From Streptococcus intermedius SK54 = ATCC 27335 (GTDB lineage Bacteria > Bacillota > Bacilli > Lactobacillales > Streptococcaceae), in NCBI RefSeq assembly GCF_000413475.1, contig NZ_ATFK01000003.1, positions 124,001 through 188,000 on the forward strand: a stretch of 64,000 nucleotides of DNA, given 5' to 3'. This document shows, one piece after another, positions 3,101-33,256 of this stretch. Every line of letters starts with the position of its first letter. Positions within the stretch are counted from its first letter, which is position 1. The translations under genes were made by a program, and so were the position numbers. The notes under the pieces were generated by a model that searched no databases, was not told where the DNA came from, and saw only the letters and a list, made by a program, of their open reading frames with translations.

Positions 3101-3861
3101 AATTGAAAGATGCGGTTATTGAAGAGGATTTAATAGAGAATCGCCAATCTGAGGATATTCGCAGGGCTTTGGATATTTTGGAAAATGTAGATCGACTGAA
3201 TACTCAGTATCGAGCTGCCATTCATCTACCGAGTGTTCAAACACCAAGTCAAATCAAGAAATTTTATGAACCAGTTATAGATACAGATGGTGTTGAAATT
3301 ATGGAGAAAAGGAATCCGACCATTGTAGGAAAAGCTTCTTTTGAGCTACCAAATTTTGCTAAAAAAGCTCCAGTTACAGGAGCGCAAATTGGTAGCGCCG
3401 TCCATGAACTGATGCAGCGTATTCCTTTGGATCAAGCCCCTACGATAGCTATTTTGAGAAAAGTTTTAAAACAGGTTCAGGCAGAAGCAAGTGTTAAAAA
3501 GAAAATTAATTTGCAAAAGATAGCTAGTTTCTTTGGGACTGAACTTGGACAGCTCCTTTTGAAGTATACAGACAGAGTATATCGTGAAGCCCCTTTTGCT
3601 ATGTTAAAGCAGGATCCAGCAAGTGGACAAGATTTTGTTGTTCGTGGGATATTAGATGGCTATCTTCTATTAGCTGACCGAATTATTCTCTTTGACTATA
3701 AAACGGATCAATACACTCATTCAAGTGAATTAGTCAAACGATACCGAGGGCAATTAGCACTTTATGCCGAAGCTCTTAGGCGTTCGTATGGTATTGAAAA
3801 AATTGAAAAATACCTAGTGCTACTAGGTGAATCTCAACTTCAAGTAGTCAAGGTGGATTAG
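181..3861 (+). CDS. rexA: RexA (AddA-type) helicase-nuclease subunit
   Basis: RexA is the helicase/nuclease subunit of the RexAB complex that processes DNA ends for recombination. The 1226-residue product has a UvrD-type Walker A (ASAGSGKT, about residues 47-54), a Walker B/helicase motif II (VDEYQDTN, about 418), a later helicase motif around [11 protein letters not shown], and a C-terminal PD-(D/E)XK-type nuclease motif (DYKTD, about 1172). The length fits the family. I chose ATG 181 over an upstream start at 148 because GGAGG lies at 166-170 and ATG overlaps the rexB stop, which suggests translational coupling. A strong terminator follows 12 bases after the stop. Confidence 0.95.
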
Positions 3862-14736: not shown

Positions 14737-16245
<1,509 letters not shown>

Positions 16246-16260
16246 GAAGAGAGGTGTCAG

Positions 16261-17139
16261 ATGGCAGTTTCATTAAATGATATAAAAAATAAAATTGCAT
16301 CCACAAAAAACACCAGTCAAATCACAAATGCTATGCAGATGGTGTCTGCTGCAAAGTTGGGAAAATCTGAAGAAGCAGCCAAAAATTTTCAAATCTATGC
16401 TTCTAAGGTCAGAAAATTATTGACGGATTTACTTCATGGACATGAAGCTCAAAATTCCAAATACCATCCTATGCTTGTTAGTCGTCCGGTTAAGAAAACA
16501 GCTTATATCGTTATCACATCGGATCGTGGCTTGGTAGGTGGTTATAATGCGACCATTCTCAAATCCATGATGGAACTTTTTGCGGAATACCATGATAAAG
16601 ATGATTTTGTCATTATTTCAATCGGAAGTATGGGTTCGGATTTCTTTCGTGCTCGTGGTCTCCAACCAATTTATGAACTGCGTGGTTTAGCAGATCAACC
16701 AAGCTTTGATGAAGTCCGTAAAATCATTAACAAAACGGTTGAAATGTATCAAAACGAATTATTTGATGAATTGTATGTTTGTTATAATCATCACGTCAAT
16801 AGTTTAACAAGCCAAATGCGTGTTGAACAAATGCTTCCAATTGTGGATTTGGATCCAAATGAAGCAGATGAAGACTACGTTTTGAATTTGGAATTGGAAT
16901 CAAGTCGTGATGTCATTTTGGATCAATTGTTGCCTCAATTTGCTGAGAGTATGATTTATGGGGCAATTATTGATGCGAAAACTGCTGAAAATGCAGCAGG
17001 AATGACCGCCATGCAGACAGCAACAGATAACGCAAAGAAAGTTATCAGTGATTTAACGATTCAGTATAACCGTGCTAGACAAGCTGCTATCACGCAAGAA
17101 ATTACTGAAATTGTGGCGGGTGCAAGTGCACTAGAATAG
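16261..17139 (+). CDS. atpG: F0F1 ATP synthase subunit gamma
   Basis: Subunit gamma is the central rotor shaft. The 292-residue protein has the typical N-terminal helix ([30 protein letters not shown] region) and a matching C-terminal helix ([15 protein letters not shown]) that form the coiled coil inside the F1 hexamer. A GAGAGG ribosome site lies close before ATG 16261. Confidence 0.96.
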
Positions 17140-17158
17140 TGTCACATAAAATAAATAG

Positions 17159-18580
<1,422 letters not shown>

Positions 18581-18590
18581 GAGGTGACTT

Positions 18591-19010
18591 ATGGCTCAAA
18601 TGACAGTACAAATCGTTACACCTGATGGTCTGGTTTTTGATCATCATGCAACGTTTGTTTCCGTTAAAACTCTTGATGGAGAAATGGGGATTTTGCCGCA
18701 TCATGAAAACATGATTGCTGTTTTGGCTGTCGATGAGGTCAAAGTGAAGCGGATTGATGAAGAAGATCATGTCAATTGGATTGCGGTGAATGGTGGAATT
18801 GTCGAAGTTGCTGATAATTTGATTACCATCGTTGCAGACTCTGCTGAACGCGCTCGTGATATTGACATTAGTCGTGCTGAAAGAGCAAAATTGCGTGCCG
18901 AGCGTGCCATTGAAGAAGCACAGGAAAAGCATTTAATTGACCAAGAACGTCGTGCCAGAATTGCCCTTCAACGTGCCATTAATCGAATTAACGTTGGAAC
19001 AAGATTATAA
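18591..19010 (+). CDS. atpC: F0F1 ATP synthase subunit epsilon
   Basis: Subunit epsilon regulates F1 hydrolysis and contacts the c-ring. The 139-residue product has the N-terminal beta-sandwich ([12 protein letters not shown]… [11 protein letters not shown]) and a C-terminal two-helix domain rich in Arg, Ala and Glu. It ends the atp operon, 10 bases after atpD, and runs directly into a terminator. Confidence 0.96.
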
Positions 19011-19037
19011 TAAAAAGGCCATTTGGCCTTTTTATTA
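19008..19037 (+). terminator. atp operon terminator; left copy of the pilus-flanking repeat
   Basis: A 13-bp perfect stem with loop ATTT (core AAAAAGGCC-ATTT-GGCCTTTTT) begins at the atpC stop. A 22-base core of it (19014-19035) recurs identically at 24900-24921, on the other side of the pilus genes. Confidence 0.9.
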
Positions 19038-19374
19038 TAAGGACAACATTACTTTATGATTTAAATAAATTTTTGAGATGAGTTGATAGTTTCCGCTTAT
19101 CTTTTTTTATCAATCATTCACTATAATTTATCGATTTCAAAGAATTCTTTAGTTATGTTTTTAAGAACTGACTGTCCTTTTCTAATATTTAGATTCTAAT
19201 CTTATAATATCTTCACATTATAATTTTTATATTTGCATCATAGAAAACTTCAATATCAAAAGTGTTGTAAAGATATTTAAAAAATGATAATATATAGTGA
19301 AGTTATTGATCTATCAAGATTATATCTTGTTAACATGCGTTATATATAGAGCATTTGTTCCATGGAGTTATAAA
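19038..19374. other. AT-rich leader upstream of the pilus genes
   Basis: This stretch holds no supported gene. A possible promoter is TTGTAA (19265-19270) with TAATAT (19288-19293), 17 bases apart. The composition is strongly AT-rich, so this is a weak call. An in-frame GTG at 19297 could extend the next gene by 26 codons, but it lacks a ribosome site. Confidence 0.35.
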
Positions 19375-22300
19375 TTGAAAAAGTTTTTATCCCTATTTAC
19401 AATATTAATTGTATTGTTCCCATATATTCATTTCACAACAGCATTTGCAACAGATATTTCGGGTTCTCAAGTTCAGCAGTCACGTTCGTCTGATGAATCT
19501 GCTTCTGTAAATTCTGGTAGTGCTATATCAGATGGTACAAGCACGACAGCCTCTGCTTCTAAAAAAGAGTTAACGAAACCTTCTTCCAAAACACAATTTT
19601 CAGGTGACGAAGTCGATGTTACAGTAGAGGGTACATCAGAAGTTATAAACTCTTCTTTGACGGTCAAGAGGATATTGCCAAAGACAAAAGAAGAAATTAC
19701 AAAGTATACTACCACGATAAACGCAGTACAAAATTCTTCTAATAAATTAGTAAATGCAGCACAGATTTATCAATTGGAAAAATCAAAGGTGACAAATTCT
19801 CAGCTTTCAACAACATTTACGTTTAAATCACCCTTAAATTTAAGAGGAATAAAGAACGATAAAAGCAATGTTGCTGTTGCAGCTATTGATCGAAATCAGA
19901 ATGTTAAAGATTTGAATGCTGATATTACTCTAGATGAGTCTGGTTCTATTGCCAGTATAAAATTAGCGCGACTGCCAGATGTATATCGATTCGTCATTTA
20001 TACAACTTCTGAAAAAACAGATTCTACAGTACTTTCCTTTGAAGGGTATGGAAGGATTACATTTGCCGCTGGAACAACGATTCAGGAAGCTACAAAATAT
20101 ACTTTAGAGGATTTTAGCAGGAGAGTTCAAGTTAAGATTTTGGTATCGGACAAAGAAAAAACAGAACTTTCTGATTATAAAGAAGTTGCTTTTAAGCAGG
20201 TAACGACGTGGAATAATACGGTTACAATTGAAGATGTTGACCTCGACAAATATGATTTAGTCAAGGTTCGGTACCAAGAAGCACACACTAATCAAGAAAC
20301 AGATAGCTACAAGTTAGCAAACGATTATCCAGTGTCCTCTTATCTTGGAGGAAATTACCAAGACGATAAAGCTAGCTTTAAAAAAATCTGAGAACATTAT
20401 CAAAGTGTATCTAAAAAAGACAAAATCAGTCTCTGATGGAGCTCCCATTGCAAAGCCAAGGACGAGACGAGCTACTCAAAATCGTGCGGCTGATGATGGA
20501 AATAACGCAGCAAGTTTACCACATAATAAACGAATTGATTATTTGGGCGATAAAAAGAACAATCCTGATACAACTGTGGATGACGGACAGCGTGATACAT
20601 CTGACCTGTATCGCTTATATATGGATATTACAGGCAAACAACAACCTATAGATGTATTGGTTGTAGCTGACCAATCTGCTAGTATGCAATTTGGTATTGG
20701 TGGGGGACAGCCTTCACGGCATAACATACGGCGTGATACTGCTATTAATAATGCTTTGAATGGACAAAACGGTTTATTGAAAAAATTTCTTGATATGAAT
20801 CCTGAAAATAAGCTTGCTGTTATTAGCTTTCAAGGAAATGTACAAAAACAATATTGGAATGGAAATTACTGGGACGCAGATCATCCGTCAATTGCAGAAA
20901 GTAAAGATGCCAGCATCTTAGCAAATTGGGGACGTCCAAATTCAGTTTCAGTACAAGCGAAAAATAGGAATGGTACCAACTATGCTGCAGGTCTTCACTT
21001 GGCAAATAAAATGTTAAACGACCCAAGCATTGCAAATAATGGTCATCGTAAGATTATGATTTTTATTAGTGATGGTGTTCCGACTTTTTATTTCCATAAT
21101 GGATATAGATATGGAACAGGTATTGGTACGGATGTGAATAATGTTCGAAATTCTAAAGAATACTCTAAACAGGCTTTTGATGAGTTTAAGAATAAGAACC
21201 CAAATGTAACAACGTATACATTAGGTGTTTCAAAAGACATTACAAGTGAAACAGAAACTTCTAGTCCTGAAGTCCTTAAATATATGGCTGAACATGGGAA
21301 TGGATTATTTGCTGGTGTGACTGATACTGCGTCACTTGAAAGAAGTCTAAATGCGATTGTGGATGCTACTAAAGTTACCGAAATGAATGTGACGGATGAA
21401 CTAAGCCAATATGTTAACTACTACAGCGAACAACCTGATGTTAAGATAACTAGAAAGCATGTTGGGACAGGACAAGTGGAAACGCTTTATGAAAAGAATC
21501 AAGTAACTACAAAAGGTAGAGGCATTATTGATTCAGTAGGCTTCCACCAACTATCTTCCAAAGATTCTACAGGAAAAATCAATCTGAAGTTTAAGTCGAA
21601 TTTTCGGATGGACGATCAGTATATCTACACCTTATCTTATAATGTGAAATCATCAGAAGAAGCTTATCGTACATATTCTCATGATAAAGGTAAATATAAG
21701 GCTAAGGGAGATGACGATACTGACTATAAAGGCAATGTCACAAGTTCCAGTAAAGAAGGATTCTATACCAACAAAGATGCTTATGCTACCTATAAAGTGG
21801 ACAATGTGATTAGAACGATTCATTATAAGCATCCAGTTGCTCAAGTTGAGCCTACAGAAACTTCTTTAACGAAAGTTGCTTTTGAAAATCAAAACACAAA
21901 ATTATCAGCAGTTCGTTTTGAGTTAAGAGAGGAAGATAAGCGATCTGTTTGGACTAGTGGGGAAACAAATAGTAATGGTCAGTTAACCTTATCTCATTTA
22001 AAAAAAGGAAAAACTTATTATCTATTTGAGACCAAAGCTGCTTCGGGTTATACCTTACCAGAAAAGCCTTGGAAAATAACGGTAACAGAAAATGGCGAAG
22101 TTTCCATAATAGATCAGTTAAATCATAAACTAAGTAAACAAAGTAATCGCTTTGTGATTACCAATCATAAAATATATCAGCTACCATCTTCAGGCGGAAC
22201 AGGTCCATATCTGTATACAATTATTGGTGTTATGGTGGTAGCGACTTCAACACTCGTTTATGTTCAGCGTAAACGAAGGGAGGTGATGGATGATGCTTAG
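19375..22300 (+). pseudogene. Pilus tip adhesin with VWA and CnaB domains, split by a one-base frameshift
   Basis: The gene reads as one surface protein of about 974 residues if one base is removed from the A7 run at 20380-20386. The upstream frame (TTG 19375, GGAG at 19364-19367) has a signal peptide (MKKFLSLFTILIVLF…, cleavage after AFA near residue 25) and stops at 20391 after 338 residues. The downstream frame carries a VWA domain with the MIDAS motif DQSAS, GTNYAAG and SDGVP, then a CnaB domain with YYLFETKAASGY, then a sorting signal LPSSGG, a membrane helix and a basic tail. As read, neither half can be both secreted and wall-anchored. It could be a true mutation, a phase-variable or slippage-rescued gene, or a sequence error. 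Confidence 0.8.
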
Positions 22301-22366
22301 TAAAAGATAGTTTCAGACAATCGTTATCCATCACACAAAAAATAATGAAGAAAGAAAGTGAAAAAG

Positions 22367-24001
22367 ATGAATTTATTGAAAAAGTTAGTTGCATTTATCG
22401 CGACTATGTTTGCTGTAGGAGTTTTTGGAACATTAAATGTCTCAGCGACATCAAACACAGATACAGCTACGTTAAAGATTACTAACATTGAAGGTAATCC
22501 AACTGTTAAATTGTATAAAATTGGTACAGGTGAGTATAATGCTAACAATGATTCCTTTATAAAGTTTAAGTATGAAAATGGCGTTTCATTAACTGAAACA
22601 GGTCCAACATCCCAAGAAATTACAAAGATAGCTAACGATATTAATAAAGGTATAATTTCGCCTACGTTAGTAAATACTGGAAATGCGACTAATGGTACCT
22701 ATACATATCAAGCGACTGGTGCTGGTGTATATATTGCAATTTTGACTGGTGCGACAGATGGTCGGACTTATAACCCAGTTCTTCTTGCAGCTTCTTATAA
22801 TGGCGAAGGTATATTAAAAGGTGGAGAAGTTTCAAGCAAAGCTAACTATCTTTATGGCCAAACGACAGTTGCTAAGTCAACTTTGCCATCTATTAAAAAA
22901 GAGGTAAGTAATACTACTAAGGATGGTGACAAAGATACAGCTTCAGTGGGTCAAGAGTTAACCTATAAATTAACAGTACAATTACCAAGTTACTCTGAAA
23001 ATGCTTCAAATAAGACAGTATTTGTTTCTGATGAAATGTCAGAGGGTTTGACGTTTGATTATACTAGTTTAACAGTCACCATGGGTAGTAAAATTGGTAA
23101 AATTGATATAACTACGAATTCAGTAAGTATTGATGGTAAAAAAATTGCAAATGTCGCTAAAACTGCGAATGGTTTTCGTTTAAACTTTGATTATGATAAT
23201 TTAGATTCTACTACTAGCCTACAGGTGACGTATAAGGCTGTTGTAAATGAAAAAGCTGTTGTTGGTAGTACAGGTAATACAAATACAGCGAATTATTACT
23301 ATGCTTCAAATCCCACACAAGGAGAAACACATAAAACAACAGACGAACCGGCAGAAGGAAATGGCCTTACAAAAAAAGAAGATAGTAGAAAAGTTTATAC
23401 TTATCGTATAGCATTCAAGAAAACTGGTCAAAATAAAACTGCACTTGCAGATGCTGTGTTTGGAATTTATGCAGATCAAAATGCGACTAGGTTGATTGAT
23501 ATTGTTAAAACAAATAATAAAGGATATGCTACTTCTAACCAAGTGGGAGCTGGTACGTATTATATCAAAGAAATGAAAGCTCCAAAGGGCTATTCATTAA
23601 ATACTAAAGTCTATTCTGTGGAAGCAAAATGGAGTTCAGTTACAGCATCAACAGTTGTTACTAGAACAGAAACAATTTATACAACAAATGAATCTGAAAA
23701 AGCACCAGGTTCAAGTAGTGTAGGTTGGCTAAAAAATGGAAATTACTATAAACAAAAGATTGATGGAGCTCAAGAGGCTTATATCAAGTCAACAACGGGC
23801 TCAACTGCTACAACTTCAACAGTAGAATTGAATAAAGGGGAGGGAACTGGTACTGCTGTATTAACCACTGACATTCCCAACACAAAACTTGGAGAACTAC
23901 CTTCAACTGGTGGTATTGGTACACTTTTATTTACAATGATTGGTGTAGTAGTGATGGCAGCTACAGCTGGAATTTATGTTCTTAAACATAAAAAATCATG
24001 A
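22367..24001 (+). CDS. Major (backbone) pilin, LPSTG-anchored
   Basis: The 544-residue protein is probably the pilus shaft subunit. It has a signal peptide (MNLLKKLVAFIATMFAVGVF…, cleavage after VSA), an N-terminal domain, and a fimbrial isopeptide-forming domain starting near PSIKKEVSNTTKDGDKDTA. A C-terminal CnaB-type domain follows, with E-box-like YYIKEMKAPKGYSL. The protein ends in LPSTGG, a membrane helix and the tail KHKKS. A GTG nine bases upstream (22358) is an alternative start; I prefer ATG 22367 because GAAAG lies at suitable spacing. It is followed by a hairpin and then sortase C, which would polymerise it. Confidence 0.85.
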   Translation: MNLLKKLVAFIATMFAVGVFGTLNVSATSNTDTATLKITNIEGNPTVKLYKIGTGEYNANNDSFIKFKYENGVSLTETGPTSQEITKIANDINKGIISPTLVNTGNATNGTYTYQATGAGVYIAILTGATDGRTYNPVLLAASYNGEGILKGGEVSSKANYLYGQTTVAKSTLPSIKKEVSNTTKDGDKDTASVGQELTYKLTVQLPSYSENASNKTVFVSDEMSEGLTFDYTSLTVTMGSKIGKIDITTNSVSIDGKKIANVAKTANGFRLNFDYDNLDSTTSLQVTYKAVVNEKAVVGSTGNTNTANYYYASNPTQGETHKTTDEPAEGNGLTKKEDSRKVYTYRIAFKKTGQNKTALADAVFGIYADQNATRLIDIVKTNNKGYATSNQVGAGTYYIKEMKAPKGYSLNTKVYSVEAKWSSVTASTVVTRTETIYTTNESEKAPGSSSVGWLKNGNYYKQKIDGAQEAYIKSTTGSTATTSTVELNKGEGTGTAVLTTDIPNTKLGELPSTGGIGTLLFTMIGVVVMAATAGIYVLKHKKS

Positions 24002-24008
24002 TGAATGA

Positions 24009-24041
24009 AATACTGGGATTGCCTAATACAATCCCAGTATT
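24009..24041 (+). promoter_or_regulatory. Hairpin between major pilin and sortase genes
   Basis: A 12-bp perfect inverted repeat (AATACTGGGATT/AATCCCAGTATT) with a 9-base loop begins 7 bases after the pilin stop and is followed by TTATATG. The T tract is short, so it may be a leaky terminator or an mRNA stabiliser that sets pilin above sortase. The sortase ribosome site lies immediately downstream. Confidence 0.65.
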
Positions 24042-24055
24042 TATATGAGGTTAGA

Positions 24056-24892
24056 GTGAAACATAAGAAAAAAAATATTGGTTTAATTCTATTTTTTATA
24101 TTTGGTTTTCTTATTCTGATATATCCGATTGTTAGTAATGCTTGGAATTCCTATCGGGCAAATCAACTTTTATCGTCTTATGACAAAAAAATCAAATCAA
24201 ATCAAAAAAAAGAAAATATCAAGATGTGGGAAGATGCAATTGCGTATAACAATGAGTTGGGAATACAACCAGTACCGGATGCCTTCTCTGTACGGGATGG
24301 TATTCATGATACAAAATATGAATCGCTTTTGAATGTGAACAAAAATGGTATTATGGGATATGTTGATATTCCGTCAATTAAAGTAAAACTTCCAATTTAT
24401 CACTATACTACTGACGAGTCGCTAAGCAAGGGAGCTGGTCACTTATTAGGGAGTTCCTTACCAGTTGGTGGAGAGGGGACTCATGCTGTTGTGTCTGCTC
24501 ATAGGGGGCTTCCAACTGCAGAGATGTTTACCAATCTTCCTAGTTTAAAAAAAGGAAAGTATTTTTATTTTCATGTTTTAGATAAAATTATTGCCTATAA
24601 AGTTGACCAGATTTTAACAGTTAAACCTTATCACGTTTCTGCATTATCTGGAGAAAAAGGAAAAGATTATGCGACGTTGATTACTTGTACACCATATGGG
24701 GTCAACACGGAGCGTTTGCTCGTTAGAGGACATAGGGTACCATATAATCCAAAAACATATCAAAAGGAAAAAGCAAGTAAAGGAAAAATTGATTCTAGTT
24801 TTTGGTTCCTGCAGTTGCTATCGGTTGTGATCGGATTGATATTAGCTTTTGTAGTCGTCTATTTTTATGTATTATTTACTAAAAAGAAGTAA
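24056..24892 (+). CDS. Class C (pilus) sortase
   Basis: The 278-residue transpeptidase is expected to link pilin subunits covalently. It has an N-terminal membrane helix (about residues 8-26), the catalytic triad His149 (VSAHRG), Cys211 (LITCTPYG) and Arg220 (TERLLVRG), and a C-terminal membrane helix typical of class C. The lid region reads SVRDGIHD instead of the common DPF/DPW motif. I chose GTG 24056, preceded by GAGG (24047-24050). The longer frame from 24005 lies inside the hairpin and has no ribosome site. It is the last gene of the island. Confidence 0.9.
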   Translation: MKHKKKNIGLILFFIFGFLILIYPIVSNAWNSYRANQLLSSYDKKIKSNQKKENIKMWEDAIAYNNELGIQPVPDAFSVRDGIHDTKYESLLNVNKNGIMGYVDIPSIKVKLPIYHYTTDESLSKGAGHLLGSSLPVGGEGTHAVVSAHRGLPTAEMFTNLPSLKKGKYFYFHVLDKIIAYKVDQILTVKPYHVSALSGEKGKDYATLITCTPYGVNTERLLVRGHRVPYNPKTYQKEKASKGKIDSSFWFLQLLSVVIGLILAFVVVYFYVLFTKKK

Positions 24893-24899
24893 ACACGGT

Positions 24900-24921
24900 A
24901 AAGGCCATTTGGCCTTTTTAT
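24900..24921 (+). terminator. Pilus operon terminator; right copy of the flanking repeat
   Basis: A 7-bp stem AAAGGCC/GGCCTTT with loop ATTT is followed by T residues. The 22 bases are identical to 19014-19035 in the atp terminator. Confidence 0.85.
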
Positions 24922-24963
24922 ATTGGTTCTGTTGCTATCAATACATGATTCATCTTTGAAAAT

Positions 24964-24991
24964 TTGCTCTCATCTGTTTTTTTGGTATAAT
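24964..24991 (+). promoter_or_regulatory. Promoter of the DUF1146-murA block
   Basis: An extended -10 (TGGTATAAT, hexamer 24986-24991) has a weak TTGCTC (24964-24969) 16 bases upstream. Transcription would begin close to 24998, the A of the next ATG. Confidence 0.6.
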
Positions 24992-24997
24992 AGGAAT

Positions 24998-25228
24998 ATG
25001 ATTCAGTTAATTTTTACACTTAGTAGCCATATGATTTTTATTTTTCTTTCATTTCACTTGCTTTCTACTGTTGTGAATTGGGAAAGACTATTAAAGGTGA
25101 ATGCTGATAATGCTCTTAAGATTCGATTATTAATTTTATTGCTTAGTATTGCATTAGGTTTTTTACTTAGTTCTTTCTTCCTTAATCTCTATACATTGGG
25201 ACGAGATGTGTTTAATAGTAATTTATAA
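24998..25228 (+). CDS. DUF1146 (YwzB-like) small membrane protein
   Basis: The 76-residue product has two membrane helices (about residues 4-24 and 43-67), with VNWERLLKVNADNALKIRL between them, matching the DUF1146 family. The family commonly lies between atpC and murA in Firmicutes; its function is not known. ATG 24998 is chosen over an upstream TTG because it gives the family's usual length. Its ribosome site is weak (AGGAAT), and the promoter -10 ends only 6 bases upstream. Confidence 0.85.
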   Translation: MIQLIFTLSSHMIFIFLSFHLLSTVVNWERLLKVNADNALKIRLLILLLSIALGFLLSSFFLNLYTLGRDVFNSNL

Positions 25229-25265
25229 GATAAGAAAAGAAATACAATAGGTGTTTTGGAGAAAT

Positions 25266-26546
25266 ATGGATAAAATTATTATACAAGGCAGTTCGAATCC
25301 ATTAGTTGGTTCGGTTAAAATTGAAGGTGCCAAAAATGCTGTTTTGCCCTTGCTTGCAGCAACTATTCTAGCGACGACAGGGAAAACAATTCTAACCAAT
25401 GTTCCGGTTCTATCGGATGTGTTTACGATGAACAATGTGGTTCGTGGATTGAATACAAAAGTGACTTTTGAGCAAGAAGAGAACAGGATTACGGTGGATG
25501 CTACACAGCCGTTGAGTGAAGAAGCGCCTTATAAATATGTGAGTAAAATGCGTGCTTCTATCGTGGTATTAGGTCCGATTTTGGCACGTAATGGTCATGC
25601 CAAAGTTTCTATGCCTGGTGGTTGTACGATTGGAAGTCGTCCTATTGACCTTCATTTGAAAGGATTAGAGGCAATGGGGGCTGAAATTAAGCAGACGGCT
25701 GGATTTATTGAGGCCAAAGCTAACCGATTGCATGGAGCTCATATTTACATGGATTTTCCAAGTGTGGGTGCGACGCAAAATATCATGATGGCAGCAACTT
25801 TAGCAGATGGTGTAACAGTGATTGAAAATGCAGCGCGCGAACCGGAGATTGTTGATTTAGCTGTTTTATTGAACAAAATGGGAGCTAAAGTTCGTGGTGC
25901 AGGTACAGAGACACTAACCATTACTGGAGTTGAGGAGCTGATGGGGACAAGCCATAGTGTAGTACAAGACCGCATTGAAGCCGGGACTTTTATGGTAGCA
26001 GGTGCTATGACTGGTGGTAATATTCTTATTCAAGACGCTATCTGGGAGCATAATCGTCCACTTATTGCGAAATTGCTAGAAATGGGTGTCTCTGTTACCG
26101 AGGAAAATGAGGGGATTCGGATTCGTTCAGATTTGGGCAAACTGAAGGCAGTCAATGTCAAAACACTTCCTCATCCTGGTTTCCCAACAGATATGCAGGC
26201 ACAATTTACAGCTTTGATGACGGTTGCTAAGGGCGAATCCACTATGATTGAGACTGTTTTTGAGAATCGTTTCCAACATCTGGAAGAAATGCGTCGAATG
26301 GGTCTACACTCGGAAATTATGCGAGACACAGCTCGTATTGTTGGTGGCCAAGCTTTGCAAGGGGCCGAAGTGATGTCAACGGACTTGCGTGCAAGTGCCG
26401 CGCTAATTTTGACTGGTTTGGTTGCAGACGGTGAAACAAAAGTAGGACAACTAACTCATTTGGATAGAGGTTATTATCAATTTCATAAAAAACTAGCTAA
26501 TTTGGGTGCAAATATTAAGCGAGTGAAGGAAGAAGACGATGAATAA
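25266..26546 (+). CDS. murA: UDP-N-acetylglucosamine 1-carboxyvinyltransferase MurA
   Basis: MurA transfers enolpyruvyl from PEP to UDP-GlcNAc, the first committed step of peptidoglycan synthesis and the target of fosfomycin. The 426-residue protein has the N-terminal [15 protein letters not shown] region and the reactive cysteine in [11 protein letters not shown] (Cys120), so fosfomycin binding is possible. GGAG precedes ATG 25266. An upstream in-frame start at 25251 lacks a ribosome site. Its last codons overlap the epuA start. Confidence 0.96.
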
Positions 26547-26715
26547 TAATTTGAAATATGTTAAAAAACAAGTCGGAATTGTTTTGGCCGTCTTATTGTT
26601 TGGTTTGATTTTGTTTGCACTTGGCTTGGTTGTTGGCTATGGTGGAAAAAATCCATGGGATATTCTATCTCCAGACAAGTGGCAGGAGATTGTTAGCAAA
26701 TTTACAGGACGATAG
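26539..26715 (+). CDS. epuA: EpuA-like small membrane protein (annotated as RNA polymerase beta-associated family)
   Basis: The 58-residue protein ([20 protein letters not shown]…) has one hydrophobic helix at about residues 11-33, followed by the conserved [15 protein letters not shown] segment. It overlaps murA by 8 bases and precedes endA, the order known in other streptococci, where epuA lies upstream of endA. Function is unproven; databases list the family as DNA-directed RNA polymerase subunit beta, a doubtful label for a membrane peptide. Confidence 0.85.
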
Positions 26716-26777
26716 TATTTATTGAAAGAAGGTTGAGAGTTGCTCAGCCTCCTATTTTATTTTAAGAAAGGAGAAAA

Positions 26778-27623
26778 ATGTCGCAGAGAAAATCCAATCA
26801 AAAAGTAATGCAGAGTGTTATTGGAGGGATTATTGCACTTAGTTTAGCTATTGGTGCTTATTATTTTCGAACAAATAATAATGGTACAGTTCATCAAGAT
26901 AGTTCTGCCATTAACAAAAGTCTCGAGCAACATCATGCGGGTCCTAGTAAAGATCTGGCTCAGAGTGTATTGACAGGTAATGTGCGTTCACAATTTAAAG
27001 GGAAAATCGAGTGGAATGGCGCAGGAGCTTTTATTGTCAATGAGAATAAAAATGATTTAGATGCTAAAGTGGGAAGTATTCCTTATGCGGATAATAAGAC
27101 AAAATTGGTCAGAGGTCGAACTGTTCCGACGGTAGCAAATGCTCTTTTGTCTAAAGCTACTCGTCAGTATAGGAATCGTGAAGAAACAGGTAATGGTTCA
27201 ACAACTTGGACACCTGCTGGCTGGCATCAGGTGAAGCATTTATCAGGTGAATATCATCATGCAGTTGACCGTGGACATCTGCTAGGCTATGCCTTGATTG
27301 GTAACTTGAAAGGTTTTGATGCTTCGACTAGCAATCCTAAAAATATTGCGGTGCAAACGGCTTGGGCGAATCAAGCAAATGCTAGCCATTCTACAGGTCA
27401 AAATTTTTATGAAACGAAAGTACGTAAAGCTCTTGATAAAAATAAACGAGTTCGGTATCGAGTAACCTTGATTTACGCAAGTGAGCAGGATTTAGTACCG
27501 GTTGGTTCACATATTGAAGCCAAGTCTAGCGACGGTAGTTTGGAAATAAATGTCTTTGTGCCAAACGTACAGACAGGAATTCGATTAAATTATCAGACAG
27601 GAGAAGTGACGGTCACCAACTAA
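26778..27623 (+). CDS. endA: Membrane-anchored DNA-entry nuclease EndA
   Basis: EndA is a beta-beta-alpha-metal nuclease on the outer face of the membrane. In competent streptococci it degrades one strand of incoming DNA; it also degrades neutrophil DNA traps. The 281-residue protein has a signal anchor (about residues 13-27) and the DRGH catalytic motif (residues 164-167, His167), plus downstream Asn residues ([16 protein letters not shown]) expected for metal binding. AAAGGAG precedes ATG 26778. The active site looks intact. Confidence 0.93.
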
Positions 27624-27649
27624 ATTTGGAGTTAATAGCTCATATGCTT

Positions 27650-27678
27650 TTGCATTTTTATCATCTTTTTGTTATACT
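27650..27678 (+). promoter_or_regulatory. Promoter of the ABC exporter operon
   Basis: TTGCAT (27650-27655) and TATACT (27673-27678) are 17 bases apart. The predicted start near 27685 lies directly before a hairpin. Confidence 0.6.
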
Positions 27679-27687
27679 GTTTTTGCA

Positions 27688-27741
27688 TAGGCGTGCTTTG
27701 GCACGCTCTATTTTGTCTAAAAAGTGTATAAGTGCTTTTTT
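27688..27741 (+). promoter_or_regulatory. Two terminator-like hairpins in the ABC exporter leader
   Basis: The first hairpin, GCGTGC-TTTG-GCACGC (27691-27706), is followed by TCTATTTTGTCT. The second, AAAAAG/CTTTTT (27719-27740), ends in a T run. The first may terminate endA transcripts. Because both lie downstream of the predicted exporter promoter, they could also act as attenuators. No convincing leader peptide is visible; a two-codon ATG ATG TAG (27757-27765) overlaps the ribosome site. Confidence 0.5.
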
Positions 27742-27776
27742 ATTGCGGATTATTTTATGATGTAGGGAGGAGAAAC

Positions 27777-29513
27777 ATGAAGTATATTTGGTCTTATTTG
27801 AAAAAATATCCAAAATGGTTGCTATTGGATTTCTTTGGTGCTGTCTTCTTTGTTGTGGTGAATCTCGGTTTACCGACTGTTTTAGCACGGATGATTGATG
27901 AAGGGATTAATCAAGAAGACAACAACCGTTTGTATTATTGGGCGATTGTGATGCTTATTGTGATTTTGTTGGGAATTTTGGGGCGGATCGTGCTTTCTTA
28001 TGCAGCTGGTAAGTTGACAACGAGTATGGTGCGTGATATGCGTAATGACATCTACGACAAATTGCAAGAGTATTCCCATCATGAATACGAGCAGATTGGT
28101 GTTTCATCCTTAGTGACACGGATTACCAGTGATGCTTTTGTTTTGATGCAGTTCGCAGAACAATCCCTAAAAATGGGTGTCATTACACCAATGATGATGA
28201 TTTCTAGTGTGATGATGATTTTTTTCACTAGTCCTTCCTTGGCTTGGATTGTTGCAATTTCTGTTCCTTTCCTCGGTATTGTCGTTTGGTATATAGCGGT
28301 CAAGACTCGTCCTTTATCAGAAAAACAACAAAAAACTTTAGATAAAATCAATCAATATGCACGTGAGAATTTAATGGGTCTGCGCGTTATTCGTGCTTTT
28401 GCTCGAGAAGAATTTCAAGAAGAGCGTTTTGCTTCACAAAATGATATTTATGCGAATAATTCGAATCGTCTGTTCAAGTTAACTGGTTTGACAGAACCTC
28501 TTTTTGTTCAAATTATCATCGCGATGATTGTTGCCATTGTCTGCTTTGCTTTAAAACCACTAGGTACAGGAGATTTGCAAATTGGAGATTTGGTTGCTTT
28601 TATCGAATACAGTTTTCATGCATTGCTGTCATTTCTGTTGCTATCTAGCTTGTTTACTATGTATCCTAGAACTGCTGTTTCGAGTGAACGGTTGAAAGAA
28701 GTAATGAAAATACCCATTTCGATCAATCCAAACGAAGATGGTGTGATTGAGACAGAGAGTCATGGTTATTTAGAGTTTGATAATGTTACCTTTGCATATC
28801 CTGGTGAGACAGAGAGTCCAGTCTTGCATAATATTTCCTTCAAAGCAAAACCTGGTGAAACAATTGCCTTTATTGGTTCAACAGGTTCAGGGAAATCATC
28901 TCTGGTGCAGTTAATTCCACGCTTCTATGATGTAACTTTAGGAAAAATTTTAGTGGATGGGGTAGATGTGCGCTCCTATAATCTAAAAGCATTGCGGCAG
29001 AAGATAGGCTTCATTCCACAAAAGGCTTTGCTATTTACGGGAACAATCGCAGAAAATCTGCGGTATGGGAAAGAACATGCCAGTTATGAAGAATTGACAC
29101 AAGCGGCAGATGTAGCACAAGCTAGAGATTTTATCGAAAGTAAGGAAGAACGCTTTGAAACCCATTTAGCTGAAGGGGGAAGCAATCTCTCAGGTGGGCA
29201 AAAGCAACGCCTTTCTATCGCACGTGCTGTCGTGAAAGAACCAGATATTTATATCTTTGATGATTCATTTTCTGCGTTGGACTATAAGACCGATGCCATT
29301 CTTCGAAGTCGACTCAAAGAAGTTACGCAAAATGCTACTGTATTGATTGTAGCACAACGTGTGGGAACCATTATGGATGCAGATCAGATTATTGTTCTGG
29401 ATAAGGGAGAAATTGTCGGGCGCGGAACACATGAAGAATTGTTGCAACAAAACGATATCTATCGTGAAATTGCTAATTCTCAGCTTAATAGTCAGTCACT
29501 AACAGAAGAATAG
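27777..29513 (+). CDS. Heterodimeric ABC exporter, subunit with degenerate ATPase site
   Basis: The 578-residue half-transporter has six membrane helices followed by an ABC domain. Walker A is GSTGSGKSS (about residue 367) and the signature is LSGGQKQR. The catalytic Glu after Walker B is Asp (FDDSFSALD, about 496) and the switch His is Gln (VAQRVGT, about 527). This is the pattern of the non-catalytic member of pairs such as BmrC or LmrC. GGGAGGAG lies upstream of ATG 27777. The partner gene begins 9 bases later. Multidrug or lipid-linked export is likely, but the substrate is unknown. Confidence 0.92.
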   Translation: MKYIWSYLKKYPKWLLLDFFGAVFFVVVNLGLPTVLARMIDEGINQEDNNRLYYWAIVMLIVILLGILGRIVLSYAAGKLTTSMVRDMRNDIYDKLQEYSHHEYEQIGVSSLVTRITSDAFVLMQFAEQSLKMGVITPMMMISSVMMIFFTSPSLAWIVAISVPFLGIVVWYIAVKTRPLSEKQQKTLDKINQYARENLMGLRVIRAFAREEFQEERFASQNDIYANNSNRLFKLTGLTEPLFVQIIIAMIVAIVCFALKPLGTGDLQIGDLVAFIEYSFHALLSFLLLSSLFTMYPRTAVSSERLKEVMKIPISINPNEDGVIETESHGYLEFDNVTFAYPGETESPVLHNISFKAKPGETIAFIGSTGSGKSSLVQLIPRFYDVTLGKILVDGVDVRSYNLKALRQKIGFIPQKALLFTGTIAENLRYGKEHASYEELTQAADVAQARDFIESKEERFETHLAEGGSNLSGGQKQRLSIARAVVKEPDIYIFDDSFSALDYKTDAILRSRLKEVTQNATVLIVAQRVGTIMDADQIIVLDKGEIVGRGTHEELLQQNDIYREIANSQLNSQSLTEE

Positions 29514-32801: not shown

Positions 32802-33148
32802 GGGGTCGTTACGGATTCGACAGGCATTATGAGGCACATTTTGCGACTCATCAAGCGGATGTAAAGCGCCAGTTAAATATAACTGCAAAAAATAATAATT
32901 CTTACGCTTTAGCTGCCTAAAAAACAGCCAGCGTGACCAGATTCGGATCGCTCGTGTTCGATGACAGGTCTTAATAATAGCGAGATACGATTAAGTCTTG
33001 TCTAGGGACTTGATAAGAGATTAATAGACTCGCTTGGCTTTGGCTTGAGTTATGTGTCAAAGTGAAGTTAAATCCAATACATAACCTATGGTTGTAGACA
33101 AATGTGTTGGCAGGTGTTTGGACGTGGGTTCGATTCCCACCGGCTCCA
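32802..33148 (+). ncRNA. ssrA: Transfer-messenger RNA (tmRNA)
   Basis: tmRNA rescues stalled ribosomes and tags unfinished proteins for proteolysis. The 5' end GGGGTCGTTACGG and 3' end ACCGGCTCCA form the alanyl acceptor stem, and a T arm GGTTCGATTCC lies at about 33126-33136. The tag frame GCA…TAA at 32885-32920 encodes AKNNNSYALAA. The 347-base length is normal for streptococci. The CCA end is encoded. Confidence 0.97.
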
Positions 33149-33159
33149 TTTATAAATGT

Positions 33160-33247
33160 GGAAGATTACTCAAGAGGTTTAAGAGGCTGTGTTGGAAACG
33201 CAGTAGGCGTGTAAAAGCGTGCGTGGGTTCGAATCCCATGTCTTCCG
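33160..33247 (+). tRNA. tRNA-Ser (anticodon GGA)
   Basis: The 88-base cloverleaf has acceptor pairing GGAAGAT/GTCTTCC, anticodon loop TTGGAAA with anticodon GGA, a long variable arm and a T loop GGTTCGAATCC. CCA is not encoded. It lies 11 bases after ssrA and probably shares its transcript. Confidence 0.95.
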
Positions 33248-33256
33248 TTTTGGGAC

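Follow-up and report, generated by a model that had tools for sequence, protein, structure and literature searches.

The locus between atpC and murA in Streptococcus intermedius SK54 = ATCC 27335 raises the question of how a block of pilus genes, framed by two copies of the same terminator hairpin, came to lie there. We addressed it in a 64,000-nucleotide stretch of DNA (the window; positions count from its first letter), for which a first-pass annotation had proposed that a three-gene pilus island entered at the atpC terminator and left a duplicated junction, or was acquired by recombination at it. According to our analysis, a T6-type operon was probably inserted at the atpC terminator in this lineage, with duplication of the hairpin, and then spread by ordinary homologous recombination.

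The island measures 5.9 kb and encodes a vWA ancillary pilin, a T6 backbone pilin, and one class C sortase (Table 1). The count of three genes stands, although they occupy four reading frames, the ancillary pilin gene being split by a frameshift near 20345-20391; in this count the remaining ORFs, all shorter than 100 aa, lie outside the domain search. The N-terminal frame of the ancillary pilin, which includes an A7 run at 20380-20386, is 22% identical, over 181 aa, to the N-terminal portion of an uninterrupted 1029-aa relative at locus L177, and the C-terminal frame is 43% identical to the L177 pilin. Read as it is, the interrupted gene would not be expected to yield a full ancillary pilin. 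The backbone pilin matches PDB entry 4p0d, the T6 protein, with an E value of 2.6e-153 over residues 29-515; in an order-wide sample searched at E 1e-60, it was found in 2 of 395 genomes, namely, the window's own and one with 41% identity. The backbone pilins of genomes G150 and G184, which match in another comparison, are absent from the 395-genome matches, presumably because these genomes were not drawn. Five genomes carry sortases at 58 to 66% at other locations; the 19-kb stretches examined there contain neither an atpC nor a murA match.

Table 1. Features of the atpC-murA locus in the window (G263 is one of the four genomes closest at the locus)
Feature	Position	Strand	Basis or remark
atpC (ATP synthase epsilon), left neighbour	18591..19010	+	ORF, AtpC identities; last 141 bp identical to G263
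Left hairpin, atpC terminator	19005..19040	+	Perfect 16-bp stem, ATTT loop, holds 22-mer copy 1; folding -19.8 kcal/mol, z -7.5
Left inner flank, non-coding, presumed pilus promoter region	19036..19374	+	
Ancillary pilin, N-terminal frame, early end by frameshift	19375..20391	+	ORF list
Ancillary pilin, C-terminal frame	20381..22300	+	Pfam: vWA (VWA_2), DUF7604, SpaA (Cna-B-like), LPXTG-type anchor
Backbone pilin, T6 type	22367..24001	+	T6_Ig_like 1.6e-44, GramPos_pilinBB, SpaA, anchor
Pilus class C sortase	24056..24892	+	NF033745 278.4 bits (cut-off 160); PF04203
Right hairpin, 22-mer copy 2, terminator-like	24900..24921	+	7-bp stem + T tail
Discordant stretch right of island	24922..26521	.	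87 SNPs in 1600 nt vs G263
DUF1146 gene, right neighbour, inside discordant stretch	24998..25228	+	
murA, 3' end near right edge of discordant stretch	25267..26546	+	

Judged by its genes, the island belongs to the FCT-1/T6 type of pilus operon: it combines a T6-type backbone pilin with a single, frameshifted ancillary pilin gene specifying vWA and Cna-B-like domains and with one pilus sortase, and it holds no other gene for a pilin or a signal peptidase. The FCT-1 (M6/T6) operon of S. pyogenes shares the T6 backbone pilin, matched over nearly its full length, and, in the excerpts of PMC3490378 and PMC7900414, a vWA and Cna-B-like ancillary pilin, one pilus sortase, and only two pilins. FCT-1 lies between hsp33 and spy0136, whereas the island is flanked by atpC and DUF1146-murA, away from the hsp33 neighbourhood of FCT regions, in a species of the anginosus group, and its ancillary pilin gene is frameshifted. 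T6-type pilus operons are known from group A streptococci, and one is now documented at a different place in the chromosome of an anginosus-group species; a survey of a limited literature collection by titles and abstract starts gave no report of a pilus at atpC-murA and nothing for S. intermedius with 'T6 protein'. The interrupted gene resembles the S. suis srtF cluster, for which excerpts of PMC2797073 describe, in most of the strains tested, a disrupted ancillary pilin gene beside open backbone and sortase genes; that cluster has a signal peptidase gene, sipF, and a nonsense mutation, whereas a frameshift is found here.

The borders hold the clue to the entry. Exact copies of a 22-base core lie at 19014-19035 and 24900-24921, as first annotated; the left one starts 3 nt past the atpC stop, and the right one, likewise confirmed to lie directly 3' of the sortase gene, starts 7 nt past its stop. 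They form the only direct repeat of at least 20 nt detected in the 64 kb (whole-window search with that minimum and an exact seed of 16). An 18-nt core, allowed up to 3 mismatches, matched four times in the window (mean of 100 shuffles, 0.10), at two places only, each place being matched on both strands because the core is nearly palindromic. For the same reason, the two island borders also match as inverted repeats, with 91% identity; apart from the hairpins themselves, we found no terminal inverted repeats there. A terminator-consensus scan reports the left hairpin on the minus strand only, because the plus-strand T run sits inside the long stem. The 22-mer has no match in viral contigs, and Rfam gave none at gathering score over 18500-25500.

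Beyond the window, the exact core occurs twice in the whole genome, at both borders of the island, and in 1 of 147 genomes searched, which is the window's own, itself included in the 147. When either AATT or ATTT was accepted, the core was present in 4 of 284 genus genomes, with two sites in the window genome and one in each of three relatives, where the AATT form lies at the atpC terminator; the ATTT form was confined to the window's two hairpin sites. Chance or a common terminator as the source of the repeat is ruled out by this rarity in the genome and in the 147- and 284-genome sets, and by the window repeat search. Since this is the only site in the group with the core, and since the ATTT change is common to both copies, the sequences support the view that the second hairpin arose by duplication of the atpC terminator.

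GC-rich stems and T runs are widespread among bacterial terminators, and the right copy taken alone looks like a plain 7-bp terminator; the pilus operon could, on this ground, have brought its own terminator, by chance like that of atpC. We regard such independent origins as highly improbable, indeed as nearly refuted: the 18-nt core is known among the 284 genomes only from the group's atpC terminator and the second copy here, the two copies have the ATTT change in common, and the 200 to 250 nt 3' of the sortase match in five relatives (L177 to L181), inspected by eye, hold no such hairpin, the genomes of these relatives being devoid of the core.

In the four genomes closest at the locus among those compared (G263, G231, G172, and G054, which is S. 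anginosus J4206), the site is empty, and a single hairpin lies between atpC and DUF1146-murA. Each empty site thus holds one copy, as the first-pass annotation expected, none of these four relatives carries both hairpins, and the island is not common to the whole clade; the window's species is represented by one genome, the window's own. At the position where both window copies read ATTT, the four empty sites all read AATT, and among the relatives examined no empty site with ATTT was seen. J4206 was missed by the AATT/ATTT pattern of the 284-genome search because its AATT palindrome is expanded. These states bear on whether the group instead acquired the island early and the relatives later lost it by recombination between the hairpins. 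The 22-nt direct repeats would allow precise deletion, and G263 differs from the window in just this stretch of a high-identity tract; yet two ATTT copies would leave ATTT behind, contrary to the AATT of 4/4 empty sites, and four empty relatives would need repeated loss, so that we deem this history very unlikely.

The estimated atpC-murA distance is 340 to 514 bp in 46 genomes versus 6259 bp in the window genome (47 placed); the 46 were picked by eye from listed rows because their atpC and murA matches are adjacent, and the atpC of G263 came from a separate locus comparison. The adjacency of atpC and DUF1146-murA proposed for other streptococci holds for part of the genus, in a set chosen for adjacency, and fails in the mitis-group loci examined, where other sequence lies 3' of atpC. 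As regards the duplicated junction, the single hairpin at empty sites and the site-private core bear out entry at the terminator, but a clean target-site duplication is not established, because the stem of the left copy is longer, 2 adjoining nt present in three of the empty sites are missing from it, and the inner flanks differ.

Within the left inner flank, ~19074-19108 shows a weak, no more than suggestive, resemblance to the atpC-DUF1146 spacer of the host. When 19034-19160 was locally aligned with the spacer, 0, 13, 9, and 53 of 1000 shuffles reached the score for G263, G231, G054, and the window's right copy, respectively, and 2 of 1000 reached the summed score; the neighbouring stretch, 19160-19374, gave 411, 399, 354, and 407 of 1000. 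Post hoc, this is suggestive of a longer duplication that may reach into the left inner flank. Promoter-like sites in this flank region number 20, with no excess over the shuffle mean of 27.1.

A palindromic terminator duplicated at both ends of an insert is also what a terminator-targeting insertion element or recombinase, since lost, might leave as a target-site duplication. We consider such an agent quite unlikely: the four pilus gene frames contain no transposase or integrase domain according to Pfam (smaller ORFs lie outside the search), no tRNA or tmRNA was found between 12 and 32.8 kb, junction included, no inverted repeat other than the hairpins marks the borders, and the backbone pilin has no match in 72,556 plasmids at E 1e-20, with one stretch in viral contigs matching a pattern and none confirmed. 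The island may be set beside PI-1 of S. agalactiae, which excerpts of PMC4074840 present as an accessory pilus block at a fixed chromosomal site; it is bordered by direct repeats, and other strains retain the intact site without the insert. Here, too, both borders carry the direct repeat, of which empty sites hold one copy. PI-1 spans 16 kb and includes transposable elements (same excerpts), whereas the island is 5.9 kb, has three genes and terminator-derived repeats, and shows neither a transposable-element domain in its pilus gene frames nor the integrase or recombinase gene of integrase-driven islands in the four frames searched with Pfam.

The identity profile against G263 adds a second line of evidence. 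The two sequences are 99.2% identical over 16000-19010, with one SNP in the last ~800 bp left of the hairpin, and 94.4% identical over 24922-26421, right of the island and into murA; 26522-28000 has 17 SNPs. Apart from the discordant stretch, a tract with 96.6 to 99.8% identity spans about 12.5 to 33.4 kb, while the mean over compared chunks is 93.3%, this tract included (168 of 408 chunks with a match of at least 400 nt). Because the right 1.5 kb is discordant and the left is not, the island together with its right flank resembles a single exchanged block with its left edge at the terminator, which suggests movement, or exclusion, of the island by homologous recombination with one edge there. 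Acquisition by recombination at the terminator, the other half of the first proposal, thereby gains some support from the discordant right flank and the 99% identity up to the hairpin on the left. The switch right of the island may nevertheless be an unrelated event, since switches between ~90% and 98% are frequent along the contig (for instance, 98 to 99% again at 37.9 to 39 kb).

The same profile would arise if G263 took the 21-kb tract from an island-bearing donor and kept its own empty hairpin-murA segment, the discordance then reflecting exclusion of the island. A large heterologous insert would naturally break an imported tract at the island's edge, and identity is high on both sides of the discordant stretch; no evidence favours this course over gain in the window's lineage, and we give it somewhat less than an even chance. 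The 1.5-kb right flank does not tell which of the two changed, because G231 (88.9% to the window genome, 88.6% to G263) and G054 (88.9% to both) are nearly equally distant from them. Exclusion by G263 concerns the direction of exchange and is compatible with a duplicated atpC hairpin.

In the favoured history of insertion with hairpin duplication, a T6-type (FCT-1-like) operon would have entered between atpC and DUF1146-murA at the atpC intrinsic terminator, and the second hairpin, behind the sortase gene, would be a duplicate of that terminator. The ATP synthase and pilus operons would each end with their own terminator, and insertion would therefore be near neutral for both neighbours. Thereafter, the island would have been carried between strains by ordinary homologous recombination, probably via natural transformation, autonomous movement being unlikely because the island genes include no integrase. 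For competence in S. intermedius, the excerpt of PMC3897883 cites unpublished data; it reports that the 34 examined strains of S. constellatus subsp. pharyngis lacked competence, a point against transformation should G263 belong to that subspecies. The atpC terminator might even be a general seam for cassette exchange in the group, at which surface-structure operons are swapped by transformation without an integrase: the duplicated palindrome would offer short homology at the cargo's left edge and murA a long right arm, and an exchange in either direction would leave transcription termination intact on both sides. We think this broader role rather unlikely.

The duplicated terminator and the empty relatives point to where the pilus operon entered, and an empty site, a duplicated terminator, and a nearby recombination edge are all visible at one locus. 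The 22-nt repeats could permit loss of the island by slippage or recombination, and hairpin copy number combined with the ATTT/AATT state could mark gain and loss of the adhesin operon in strain collections. Within S. intermedius, the island may be fixed and not variable, since two srtC orthologs were present in all strains studied according to the excerpt of PMC3897883 and the window genome has two strong sortase matches.

According to our analysis, the 22-base core of the atpC terminator hairpin at 19014 to 19035 is repeated exactly at 24900 to 24921, just after the sortase gene, as the first-pass annotation had reported, and this pair is the sole direct repeat of at least 20 nt found across the window. 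An 18-nt core of the hairpin occurs twice in the whole SK54 genome, both times at the borders of the pilus island between atpC and DUF1146-murA, and SK54 was the only one of 147 genomes searched to contain it. When either ATTT or AATT was allowed in this core, it matched four of the 284 genomes searched from the genus, namely, twice in SK54 and once each in G172, G263, and G231, which together with G054 (S. anginosus J4206) are the closest relatives at the locus. Folding predicted a 16-bp stem for the left hairpin; the predicted stem of the right one has 7 bp and runs into T residues. In J4206, the atpC terminator (positions 3170 to 3225 of the fetched stretch L176) has grown to GGCCAATTGGCCAATTGGCC, and its stem is longer (-22.7 kcal/mol). 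The hairpin seems able to change size.

In each of these four relatives, compared at one genome per species, atpC is directly followed by one hairpin and then by DUF1146-murA; among them we found neither the island nor an island-free site with two hairpins. The AtpC of J4206 is 98% identical to that of the window, the nearest among named records. The other three probably belong to the anginosus group, given their DNA identity to the window at DUF1146-murA (89 to 94%, with the next genome at 75% among the matches listed). Sialidase is a trait of S. intermedius, and of the five genomes tested (SK54 and the four relatives), only SK54 had a Pfam sialidase match. The estimated atpC-murA distance is 6259 bp in SK54 and 340 to 514 bp in 46 of 47 placed genomes, the four empty relatives included, these 46 having been chosen by eye for adjacent matches among those listed. 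The expected adjacency of atpC and DUF1146-murA in other streptococci holds for part of the genus, these 46 included; genomes with matches far apart or on separate contigs, for example, G041, G056, G229, and mitis-group genomes, were left out of the distances.

Both window hairpins carry ATTT, whereas those of G263, G231, G172, and G054 carry AATT, the one in G054 (J4206) being a longer, tandem version. Since the core is confined to the atpC site among relatives and to the pair in SK54, and since both window copies have ATTT in common, the atpC terminator is the most likely source of the second copy. Three empty sites have an ACG triplet a short way past the stop codon, as does the window before the right hairpin copy, and the left inner flank is weakly similar to the host spacer; both hint, neither firmly, that more than 22 nt were once duplicated.

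The four reading frames between the hairpins represent three genes, encoding an ancillary pilin, a backbone pilin, and a sortase; the description as a three-gene island stands, with the qualification that the ancillary pilin gene is frameshifted and hence split in two. Its first, N-terminal frame had no Pfam match, while the second matched vWA, DUF7604, SpaA, and anchor domains. The frameshift was read from a draft assembly of 10 contigs and lies beside an A7 run; it may be a real break, a slippage switch, or an assembly error. A broken ancillary pilin gene is also described for S. suis srtF clusters in PMC2797073. The backbone pilin contains T6_Ig_like, pilin backbone, SpaA, and anchor domains in Pfam and matches the solved T6 protein (PDB 4p0d) with an E value of 2.6e-153 across residues 29 to 515. 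The last gene has a Pfam sortase domain and scores over the NCBIfam cut-off for a class C sortase. This composition is the same as that given for FCT-1 pili, two pilins and one sortase, in excerpts of PMC3490378 and PMC7900414. The gap between the genes for the backbone pilin and the sortase holds an inverted repeat (24008 to 24042), with perfect 14-bp arms around a loop of 7 nt, which might attenuate sortase expression.

The AtpC, MurA, and EndA proteins of G263 are 100%, 97%, and 99% identical to those of the window. DNA identity to G263, taken in 500-bp chunks, was 89.6 to 94.8% at 6.0 to 12.5 kb and 96.6 to 99.8% at 12.5 to 19.0 kb; the next three chunks, on the right side of the island, gave 94.0, 96.2, and 92.2%, followed by 97.0 to 99.6% at 26.4 to 33.4 kb and then 85.9%. 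Correspondingly, we counted 17 SNPs at 17000 to 19010 (one within the final ~800 bp), 87 at 24922 to 26521, and 17 at 26522 to 28000. Because agreement is high left of the hairpin and drops over ~1.5 kb on the right, the island and this right flank look like a single block that was exchanged as a unit and whose left boundary is the terminator. Switches in identity to G263 are frequent along the contig, so the right-hand switch may instead be an unrelated event. Over the discordant flank, G231 is 88.9% identical to SK54 and 88.6% to G263, and either of these two may be the genome that was changed. The ~21 kb from 12500 to 33400 are mostly 97 to 100% identical to G263, the representative of another species, with an interruption at the island, and look like a recent exchange between species. 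Identity averages 93.3% across the portion of the contig that was compared, with the tract counted in; this covers the 168 of 408 chunks that matched over at least 400 nt, and to the left of window position -17500, most of the chunks had no counterpart in the fetched stretches.

Features located in the window
Feature	Position	Remark
Ancillary pilin frameshift	near 20345-20391	A7 run at 20380-20386
tmRNA	32802-33148	near right end of ~21-kb tract
tRNA-Ser	33159-33248	near right end of ~21-kb tract

The empty sites, the private hairpin, the shared ATTT change, and the discordant right flank agree with the initial proposal of entry at the terminator with a duplicated junction, or of acquisition by recombination. 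The island probably entered at the atpC terminator, which was duplicated, with both neighbors retaining a terminator; later exchange between lineages fits homologous recombination in which murA would serve as the right-hand arm. We infer that transformation may have been the route of exchange, that the insertion was probably neutral, and that the island could be lost via the hairpin repeats. In portions of PMC3897883, S. intermedius is described as competent on the basis of unpublished data, and 34 strains of S. constellatus subsp. pharyngis are recorded as not competent; DNA uptake by transformation in S. constellatus is stated in a 2026 abstract. The island could be fixed in S. intermedius, since two srtC orthologs are described for all S. 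intermedius strains studied in PMC3897883 and since SK54 has, besides the island's own, another strong sortase match on contig C2.

Related loci were found elsewhere in the genus. In G150 (stretch L177), the ancillary pilin is uninterrupted (1029 amino acids), and the backbone pilin and sortase are 56% and 62% identical to those of the island; an ORF ~1.8 kb upstream of these pilus genes is presumably Hsp33-like. The FCT region of group A streptococci is bordered by hsp33, according to an extract of PMC7900414. The four other relatives found through their sortases look damaged or incomplete within the fetched stretches. In G184 (L178, 12394 to 13498), a T6-type backbone pilin gene is interrupted by ORFs that look like an IS3-type transposase. 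G044 has a sortase alone in its stretch, with an internal TAG, and in the stretch from G219, the sortase is partial and contains a TAG, and the backbone pilin has no full match, while G015, a draft with 4% contamination, matched all three pilus genes in overlapping pieces. The second locus of SK54 (L194, contig C2, 44001 to 63000) combines a sortase with a distant backbone pilin match; at its G263 counterpart (L182), two sortases matched, one of which contains an internal stop. The two loci are 81% alike over 6.5 kb, with flanks at 96%.
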